Shown piece by piece: positions 61,893-64,000 of a stretch of 64,000 nt of DNA. The notes beneath the pieces are model-generated. The model was given only the letters and a program-made list of their open reading frames with translations, was not told the DNA's origin and ran no database searches. The stretch covers positions 124,001 through 188,000 of the forward strand of contig JBBFLF010000003.1 in NCBI GenBank assembly GCA_037481655.1, written 5' to 3'. Every line of letters begins with the position of its first letter. The stretch's first letter is position 1. The position numbers and the translations under genes were made by a program. Origin of the DNA: Desulfobaccales bacterium. Lineage in GTDB: Bacteria; Desulfobacterota; Desulfobaccia; Desulfobaccales; 0-14-0-80-60-11.

Positions 61893-62465
61893 ATGCTGGT
61901 GATGATCGACAATTACGACTCCTTCACCTACAATCTGGTGCAGTATTTCGGCCAGTTGGGGGCCGAAGTGCAGGTGTTCCGCAATGACGCCATTGATTTG
62001 GAGGGCCTGGAGGCCTTACCCATGACCCACCTGGTGATCTCCCCGGGCCCTTGCTCGCCCGATGAGGCGGGCATTTCGGTGGCCGCCATCCGGCATTTTG
62101 CCGGCCGGGTGCCCATTTTGGGGGTGTGCCTGGGCCACCAGGCCATCGGCCAGGCCTTTGGCGGCCGGGTGGTGCGGGCCCCCCGACTGATGCACGGCAA
62201 GACCTCCCTCATCTACCATGACGGCCGGGACCTCTTCCAGGGCTTGGCCAACCCCTTTGAGGCCACCCGCTACCACTCCCTCATCGTGGAGCGGGAGACC
62301 CTGCCCGCCTGCCTCATGGTGTCGGCCCAGACCGCGGTGGGGGAGATCATGGGGCTCAGGCACCGCAGCCACGCCATCTATGGGGTGCAGTTCCACCCGG
62401 AGTCCATCCTGACGGGTGAGGGCCTGAATTTGCTGCGCAATTTCCTCAAGCGCCAGAAAGGCTGA
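61893..62465 (+). CDS. trpG: Anthranilate synthase component II (glutamine amidotransferase)
   Basis: 190 residues. [16 protein letters not shown], the nucleophile Cys in [10 protein letters not shown], and FHPESIL for the His/Glu pair. It supplies ammonia to TrpE. GGAGAAGGT precedes ATG 61893. It could double as PabA if folate synthesis uses the same subunit. No trpD follows, which is uncommon for trp operons. Confidence 0.94.
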
Positions 62466-62482
62466 CTGCGAAAGTTACCGCC

Positions 62483-62803
62483 ATGAGCCCTGAGAAAAAA
62501 CCCCGCCGGGCCAAGGCAAAGCCTGCAGCACAAGCCCCGGCAGCCCCGGAAACCCAGGAAACCACCCCGGCGGCGCCGGCGAAGCCCAGATTTGCCATCG
62601 ACATCTACCGGGCCTGGTGCAAGGAGTGCGGCCTGTGCGCTGAGTTCTGCCCCACGGGCTGCCTCAAGCTGGACGAAGCCGGGCGCCCGGTGGTGGCCGA
62701 CGCCGCAGCCTGCGTGGGCTGCCGCTTCTGCGAGTTGCACTGCCCGGATTTCGCCATCAGCGTGCGGGAATGCGACCAGAAACCCCCGACGGAGGAGGAA
62801 TGA
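62483..62803 (+). CDS. korD: 2-oxoacid:ferredoxin oxidoreductase delta subunit (ferredoxin-like)
   Basis: 106 residues. The N-terminus is Lys/Ala/Pro-rich (about 1-36, low complexity), then two [4Fe-4S] motifs: WCKECGLCAEFCPTGCL and CVGCRFCELHCPDF. This subunit carries electrons from the thiamine-containing core to ferredoxin. It lies 18 bp after trpG; korA follows after a 540-bp repeat array. A 2-oxoglutarate or branched-chain keto acid substrate is equally possible. Confidence 0.9.
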   Translation: MSPEKKPRRAKAKPAAQAPAAPETQETTPAAPAKPRFAIDIYRAWCKECGLCAEFCPTGCLKLDEAGRPVVADAAACVGCRFCELHCPDFAISVRECDQKPPTEEE

Positions 62804-63342
62804 GTCCAAGCTTTAAAGTCCAAAGTCCAAAGTCAAAATAATAGTCCAAAGTCCAAAGTCAAAAGTCAAAAGTCAAAATAATAGTCCAAAGTACAAAGCC
62901 CCAAGATCCAATGTCAAAAAATAGTCTAAAGTTCAAGGTCCAAAGTCGAGTTTAAGGCTCAAAGTTCAAAGTTGAGTTGGGAGTTCGAGATTTTTTTATT
63001 ATTAATTTTAATTAAAAGTTTTAACAAGACCGATTTTTAGAGTCCATGACCCGATGCCCCAAAAGTCTAAAATTCTATCTTTAGAGAGAACTGTTCGTGA
63101 AGAATTTGGTTTTGAATATTTTATTTCGAATTGACTATTAACTTTAAACTTTGAACTATTAAATTTGAACTTTTTAAATCACAATTATAGACTTTGGCTT
63201 TCAACTTTCAAATTTCAACTTTGAACCTTGAACCTTGAACTTTGAAACCACGACTTTGGGCTTTGGACTTTGGGCTTTAGACTCAACACATGACTTTGGA
63301 CTTTGGACCTTGGGCTTTGGACTCAATCTTTGACTTTTGACT
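62804..63342. repeat. Inverted array of degenerate AAAGTCC-type heptads
   Basis: The left arm (about 62810-62985) is a head-to-tail run of heptads close to AAAGTCC, AAAGTTC and AAAGTCA on the plus strand. The right arm (about 63130-63340) has the reverse complement type, GGACTTT, GAACTTT and GGGCTTT. Between them is an AT-rich core (about 62985-63130). A 23-nt unit beginning AAGTCAAAATAATAGTCC is exactly duplicated at 62830 and 62870. No coding frame crosses it. It fills the whole space from the korD stop to the korA start. Confidence 0.9.
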
Positions 63343-64000
63343 ATGACAATGACTGGCAATCCCGGCCGGCCGTTACTCTTGCAGGGCAATGAAGCGGTGG
63401 TGGAGGGTGCTTTGGCCGCGGGGTGCCGTTTCTTTGCCGGCTACCCCATCACCCCGGCCACCGAGATCAGCGAGGCCCTGAGTGTGAAGCTCCCGGCCGC
63501 CGGGGGCGTGTTCATCCAGATGGAGGATGAGATCGCCGCCCTGGGCGCGGTCATCGGCGCCTCCCTGGCCGGCGCCAAGGCCATGACCGCCACCAGCGGC
63601 CCGGGCTTCTCCCTCATGCAGGAAAACTTGGGCTTCGGGGTCGTGGCCGAAGTGCCCTGCGTGATTGTCAACGTCATGCGGGGCGGGCCCTCCACGGGCT
63701 TGCCCACCCACGTCTCCCAGGGGGATGTGCAGCAGGCCCGCTGGGGCACCCACGGCGACCACCCCATCATCGTGCTTTCCCCCGCCACCACCCGGGACTG
63801 CTTCGAGCTCACCGTGCTGGCCTTCAACCTGGCGGAAAAGTTCCGCATCCCGGTCATCCTGCTCTCCGATGAGGTGGTGGCCCACACCCGGGAGAAGGTC
63901 TTCCTGCCGCATCCCAGCGAAATCGAGGTGGTGGAGCGCCTCAAGCCCACCATGCCGCCGGAGTGGTACATCCCCTACGAGGACACCCCCCGGGGGGTGC
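63343..64000 (+). CDS. korA: 2-oxoacid:ferredoxin oxidoreductase alpha subunit, 3' partial
   Basis: Open to the end of the window; 219 residues seen. LLQGNEAVVEGALAAGCRFF and AGYPITPATEISEAL are the N-terminal KorA/PorA pattern, followed by MEDEIAALGAVIGASLAGAK, TATSGPGFSLMQENLG and RGGPSTGLPTHVSQGD. With KorB it oxidises a 2-oxoacid, CoA-dependent, reducing ferredoxin. The start is ATG 63343 or 63349; the heptad array runs up to it and no Shine-Dalgarno site is visible. Confidence 0.93.
   Translation, partial: MTMTGNPGRPLLLQGNEAVVEGALAAGCRFFAGYPITPATEISEALSVKLPAAGGVFIQMEDEIAALGAVIGASLAGAKAMTATSGPGFSLMQENLGFGVVAEVPCVIVNVMRGGPSTGLPTHVSQGDVQQARWGTHGDHPIIVLSPATTRDCFELTVLAFNLAEKFRIPVILLSDEVVAHTREKVFLPHPSEIEVVERLKPTMPPEWYIPYEDTPRGV

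Follow-up and report, generated by a model that had tools for sequence, protein, structure and literature searches.

Intervening sequences (IVS) of 23S rRNA, which may contain an S23p/IVP open reading frame (ORF), are present in Coxiella, Leptospira and other bacteria, and many IVS have no ORF. The excision of 23S rRNA IVS by RNase III, with no religation afterwards, is established, including that of Coxiella (PMC4990558). The Coxiella IVS is 428 nt long (-143 kcal/mol) and contains tandem GACAGAT heptamers located before the S23p ORF (PMC4990558). The family PF05635 has also been recorded from insertions in the rRNA of CPR bacteria (PMC11270868). Tandem heptamers were also described in Xanthomonas (GGGAATC) and Nostoc (GGGGA(C/T)T), where they are treated as G-quadruplex repeats with no link to IVP (PMC4692102), and in marine Beggiatoaceae (TAACTGA), where they are ascribed to the control of translation (PMC4679880). 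These precedents, namely the heptamers of the Coxiella IVS and the GGGAATC repeats of Xanthomonas, are fragments of the picture presented below. A literature search found no paper on the heptad strings themselves, and none in the searchable literature joining heptads, IVP and intervening elements; subscription papers and preprints lie outside this search, which makes priority uncertain.

The window analysed here, a stretch of 64,000 nucleotides, represents positions 124001-188000 of contig C3 (189,943 bp) of a Desulfobaccales genome, G000. It contains an array of degenerate heptads between two genes of a 2-oxoacid:acceptor oxidoreductase (Table 1). The korD stop codon TGA occupies positions 62801-62803 and either of the two possible korA start codons follows the other end of the array, so that the array and both genes abut and the array lies stop-to-start between co-directional genes.

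Table 1. Features of the korD-korA region (positions in the window)
Feature	Position	Strand	Description	Basis and remarks
korD	62483..62803	+	2-oxoacid:acceptor oxidoreductase delta subunit, ferredoxin-like	ORF; NCBIfam OorD/PorD_KorD, below curated cut-offs
Left arm	62804..62985	+	degenerate AAAGTCC heptads outer (to ~62905), AAAGTTC-type inner (~62923-62975)	
AT-rich centre	62986..63133		GC ~0.28, no periodicity, no significant IVP-gene remnant	
Right arm	63134..63342	-	reverse complement: GAACTTT-type heptads inner, GGACTTT-type outer	
korA	63343..64000	+	2-oxoacid:acceptor oxidoreductase alpha subunit	ATG 63343 or 63349; runs past window

Tandem Repeats Finder identified a period of 7 at 62815-62919 (AAAGTCC), 63140-63246 (AACTTTG) and 63252-63323, and the heptad blocks of the left arm are separated by AAAATAAT-type linkers. 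The sequence AAAGTCCAAAGTCC, with at most 3 mismatches, has 23 matches in the window versus 3.5 +/- 1.9 in shuffles; 22 of them fall inside 62815-63344, on the + strand in the left part and on the - strand in the right part. The lag-7 match reaches 0.61 in one arm and 0.63 in the other, versus 0.34 in the centre. The arms have 32 nonamers in common as reverse complements and 0 on the same strand, and are joined by 17 inverted pairs of 22-55 nt each. The GC content falls from ~0.66-0.70 to 0.28-0.40 at the array. The opposite heptad arms and AT-rich centre reported in the earlier note are therefore real, being supported by Tandem Repeats Finder, the shuffles and the shared reverse-complement nonamers, and its observation that the array ends within a few bases of the flanking stop and start codons was likewise correct. 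The array is not a contig-end artefact, because the window lies inside the contig and the same kind of array was found at three other sites in the independently assembled genome of a sister species, G002. A search of window positions 62000-64000 against Rfam gave 0 matches up to E = 1. Before the korA ATG (window positions 63130-63349) a heptad arm stands in place of a Shine-Dalgarno-like sequence, while the other sister species, G001, has GGAGG.

The G000 genome encodes a single four-helix-bundle IVP/S23p protein (PF05635; C3:16158-16544). Its gene sits exactly between AAAGTCC and GGACTTT arms, so the heptad type around the only IVP gene of the genome is that of the korD-korA array; the IVP ORF is present in this sibling copy and absent from the korD-korA copy. 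Comparison of the korD-korA centre with the IVP element gave a best score of 34, against a shuffle maximum of 35, which is unconvincing for the best of ~20 comparisons and leaves descent of the array from an IVP copy at that very site conjectural. Its membership in a family of heptad-armed IVP elements is strongly supported. Solved relatives of the G000 protein are XCC0516 (2GSC) and 2RLD; the former comes from X. campestris, one of the species with GGGAATC arrays. The isoelectric point of IVP (~6-8) is uninformative on nucleic-acid binding.

Searching the genome for further two-armed arrays, as the earlier note had proposed, revealed at least 16 arrays, the korD-korA array among them. A three-heptad pattern has 64 + 60 matches in the 2.87-Mb genome versus 0 + 2 for a reversed control. 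Simple two-armed arrays always read AAAGTCC...GGACTTT (+ then -) and never the opposite, and in 16 of 18 informative arms the AAAGTCC-type units are outermost and the AAAGTTC-type units innermost (p 0.001). These regularities bear on the possibility that the arms are neutral heptameric simple-sequence repeats grown by polymerase slippage, with no link to any element. Bacteria have an excess of heptameric repeats, for which slippage was proposed as the cause (PMC4692102), the units are degenerate, and the number of heptamers differs among Coxiella strains (PMC4990558). However, slippage makes neither an inverted second arm nor a fixed + then - order, and it does not account for IVP genes enclosed by arms across phyla. 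The shared radial order of heptads, which slippage does not give, means that independent slippage fails as an explanation. Overall, this origin is quite unlikely, while slippage probably still alters the copy number within an arm.

Several other loci of G000 have unusual arrangements. On contig C37 (L042:9700-10800) there are tandem units of ~215 bp in which inverted heptad arms surround a conserved centre (GTGAAGACATGGCC...GATAACC); they represent a head-to-tail amplification of a mini-element. On the same contig (L042:5415-5545) a one-armed heptad array lies inside a gene read as a XerC/D-like recombinase; the heptads are stop-free in that frame (KVQ..PKS-type peptide), and G001 and G002 carry other sequence of similar length at this site. 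Next to an array on contig C23 (L040:2300-2640) lies a diverged, incomplete copy of the 3' end of a gene that resembles rtcB.

The korD-korA spacer differs between relatives. The spacers of the sister species, 117 nt in G001 and 189 nt in G002, contain neither heptads nor a dyad. In G003 the spacer is occupied by an IVP gene and its AGCTGAA/AGCTGAT heptads, which end immediately before korA. In G016 an IVP-like gene is truncated to its first 13 codons, with TTTTAGC heptads on one side and GAATAGC heptads on the other. In G004, G008, G010, G012, G013, G014 and G018, which represent other genera, the spacers contain unrelated dyad repeats, among them CACCAAGACACAAAG-type arms and CCCCCTTTCTTAAAGGGGG, with z down to -16. 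The refutation proposed in the earlier note, an ordinary spacer in relatives, had a mixed outcome: the two sisters do have such a spacer, while elsewhere different dyad elements or IVP genes were found. These differing occupants indicate that the spacer was entered more than once; it is a repeated landing place. In the G016 relative the ORF was lost at this very site while the arms were kept, and the G000 copy, with another heptad type, fits the same state, although its centre has no significant ORF trace.

The same comparison allows evaluation of a regulatory device selected in the kor operon, such as an attenuator, a terminator or an mRNA stability hairpin. A strong dyad in a transcribed spacer would suit this role, and 9 of 14 family genomes have some dyad there (z <= -2.6). 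But the sisters lack it, the spacer sequences of the relatives are unrelated to one another, and the same array type adjoins unrelated genes genome-wide in G000, making such a function unlikely. A terminator was rejected since the array contains 0 terminator-like sites. A promoter was also rejected: promoter-like matches (5 versus 1.0 in shuffles) lie in AT-rich heptads, mostly on the wrong strand. Just past the window, between korA and korB (L033:4490-5043; C3:188489-189042), the sequence reads as a minimal-nucleotidyltransferase (MNT) gene plus the beginning of a HEPN-like partner, whereas the korA-korB spacer of G001 is ~30 nt; the kor operon therefore has another insertion besides the array.

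To return to the family of IVP elements, 30 IVP loci from the same bacterial family were compared at lags 4-12. Lag 7 was the best in 28 of 30 5' flanks and 29 of 30 3' flanks, and in most loci the left and right consensus heptads are reverse complements. The heptad varies by IVP lineage (AAAGTCC, GTTTTCG, AGCTTTC, GTCAGTA and others). At L088 and L089 (G014 and G008) both flanks of the IVP gene have GAACTTT heptads in the same orientation, not inverted. Family genomes whose IVP shares at least 65% identity with that of G000 have more AAAGTYS matches than the others (medians 124 and 42, p 0.007, uncorrected for kinship). Against a strict link between heptads and IVP, G005 contains heptad-like arrays of a different type but no IVP gene.

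Scanning 84,980 species genomes yielded 80 IVP loci, which represent more than 20 phyla and include isolates. Strong arrays at these loci were found in 98 flanks at lag 7, 21 at lag 8 and 4 at lag 9, compared with 9 of 142 control stretches located 1.2-1.5 kb away. In 39 of the 80 loci the left heptad is the reverse complement of the right one with at most 1 mismatch. When the 110 IVP loci are pooled, strong lag-7 arrays, usually inverted, are present at 138 of 216 flanks versus 1 of 1080 shuffles; about a quarter of the IVP flanks lack a strong array, and some have 8- or 9-mers. Octamer arrays with an unchanged flanking layout were seen in some IVP lineages (L147, L151, L152, L154, L159, L190 and others). 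Other intergenic stretches near IVP genes contain 7-mer arrays in 14 of 100 cases, which is consistent with common ORF-less copies, yet weakens the exclusivity of heptads to IVP flanks. The distance between heptads tracks the distance between IVP proteins (Mantel r 0.28, 0/5000 permutations), also for the cross-phylum loci alone (r 0.22, 0/5000). In a tree built from a short alignment and with many open forks, the G000 IVP groups with those of family members and of an Armatimonadetes record, and Acidobacteria records are close to this group; the heptads of this group and its neighbours are AAAGTCC, AAGGTTC, AAAGTCG and AAAGTTC.

At 82 of 90 loci the upstream neighbour is co-directional with the IVP gene; at 69 of 90 this holds for the genes on both sides. 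Examples, with genes named by reading the sequence, are a Pseudoxanthomonas locus flanked by carA- and carB-like genes and a Pseudomonas locus flanked by cysD- and cysN-like genes. If IVP elements seed ORF-less copies, a genome with another IVP should contain ORF-less two-armed arrays of its own heptad, and this was observed in the isolate genome of Pseudoxanthomonas wuyuanensis, which has 3 IVP genes and the IVP heptad GGGACCG. The pattern has 93 + 83 matches in this genome, with 2 + 2 in the control. Among the matches listed, 13 two-armed pairs were read, all + then -; one represents the IVP element itself, the others have a separation of 50-130 bp, and L270 and L272, read as examples, clearly lie stop-to-start. 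Another arrangement was seen in G024, a complete genome of the same order as G000, where IVP genes and their GGACTGA/TCAGTCC heptads lie inside three CRISPR-like arrays (L243:2140-2650, L244:860-3620 and L245) with the repeat GTCGCAATCCCTTCGTAATCAGGTCAATGAAGCAGAG or a variant. Here the IVP element entered inside a CRISPR-like repeat, after ...TAATCAGG, and was amplified in tandem, the units being 215 and 480 bp long.

The full element has the structure (heptad)n - IVP gene (PF05635) - (reverse-complement heptad)n. It is spread over many phyla and prefers operon spacers in the direction of the host genes, with a heptad matching the IVP subfamily. ORF-less copies have matching heptads, and copies were gained or lost at orthologous sites. 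G001 has no IVP gene and no arrays, including at the compared array sites, while G002 shares the IVP element with G000 and has arrays at three more sites, one of them decayed. For the 139-bp array at C3:11283-11421 the presence/absence is precise, its flanks meeting with 0-2 nt and no recognisable target duplication in G001 and G002. Presence and absence at orthologous sites bear out the earlier idea of a mobile or expanding repeat and suggest that the element is mobile; no new insertion between strains was observed.

Mobility could be provided by a Y1 (RAYT) or another conventional transposase, with the IVP gene as a passenger of a REP/BIME- or MITE-like element. As those elements do, the arrays combine small size, intergenic position, absence of coding capacity, palindromic structure and many copies with presence or absence at orthologous sites, and other genera of the family frequently encode Y1 transposases. 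Unlike REP/BIME and MITEs, however, the arms consist of tandem heptads. Y1 transposases (PF01797) have 0 matches in G000 and were equally missing from G001 and G002, the heptad follows the IVP subfamily, and a4, the cleanest empty site and the only one that could be judged, showed no recognisable target-site duplication. Such an origin has a low probability. A retroelement derivative, in which an Avd-related IVP and a reverse transcriptase would make heptads by templated slippage, has in its favour the resemblance of PF05635 to Avd of diversity-generating retroelements, both being in the same four-helix-bundle superfamily (PMC10053308), and the telomere-like tandem ends, which might suit a slipping reverse transcriptase. 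Unlike diversity-generating retroelements, however, G000 contains no reverse transcriptase (PF00078, 0 matches), and 0 were found in G001-G003, G009 and several other element-rich genomes, which makes this derivation highly improbable. Without a reverse transcriptase or Y1 transposase in G000, the IVP protein is the only candidate trans factor found, and the product of C3:16158-16544 may act in trans, recognising the heptads and moving or maintaining the copies.

As RNA, the korD-korA array folds end to end (-166.1 kcal/mol, z -8.5), and the other strand also folds into one long hairpin (-167.6 kcal/mol, z -7.9). These folds and the inverted pairs back the very long imperfect hairpin envisaged in the earlier note, and, as in an IVS, the complementary ends form one long stem-loop. 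Upon transcription of the operon the two arms would pair into one ~540-nt imperfect hairpin. By analogy with 23S rRNA IVS, RNase III may cut this duplex, and the korD and korA RNAs could be separated without harm because the cut would fall between a stop codon and a start codon. The korD-korA array is probably an ORF-less, non-autonomous or decayed, intercistronic intervening element that would be transcribed with the operon and fold into an RNase III-cleavable hairpin.

It is possible, although tentative, that PF05635 marks a distinct and very widespread class of minimal mobile elements, whose inverted 7-nt (sometimes 8-nt) array ends would be recognised by the cognate IVP. These elements would occupy stop/start spacers in operons, spread ORF-less copies in trans, and survive by being cut out of the transcript as a hairpin. 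Such a class would explain a large share of the heptameric repeats that bacterial genomes contain in unexplained excess. Heptad-armed IVP elements link three separately treated subjects: the large PF05635/TIGR02436 family of unknown function, the 23S IVS and heptameric over-representation (PMC4692102). If the heptads are ends of elements served by IVP, the many proteins annotated as 'four helix bundle proteins' could be tested as element proteins, and removable intervening RNA would be present in many operons, down to pairs of the carA-carB and cysD-cysN type.

The earlier statement that the array fits no named family was only half right, since its arms are those of elements with the PF05635/TIGR02436 IVP protein, and tandem heptamers had already been reported from the Coxiella IVS (PMC4990558). 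Heptad-armed IVP elements are a widespread and apparently unrecognised kind of small DNA element. The TAACTGA repeats of Beggiatoaceae are likewise intergenic tandem heptamers near start codons; unlike the korD-korA array, they consist of 2-6 direct copies, are almost never inverted and have no reported link to IVP (PMC4679880). The Xanthomonas repeats are also tandem heptamers located mostly between co-directional genes, with 70-75 convergent inverted pairs per genome (PMC4692102). The korD-korA arms, in contrast to these G-quadruplex repeats, are A/T-rich AAAGTCC units, and in Pseudoxanthomonas, a relative of Xanthomonas, the heptads do have an IVP link. With the 23S rRNA IVS the korD-korA array shares the protein family and the inverted ends that form a long stem, whereas it lies between protein genes rather than in an rRNA gene, has many-heptad arrays on both sides and is an ORF-less copy.
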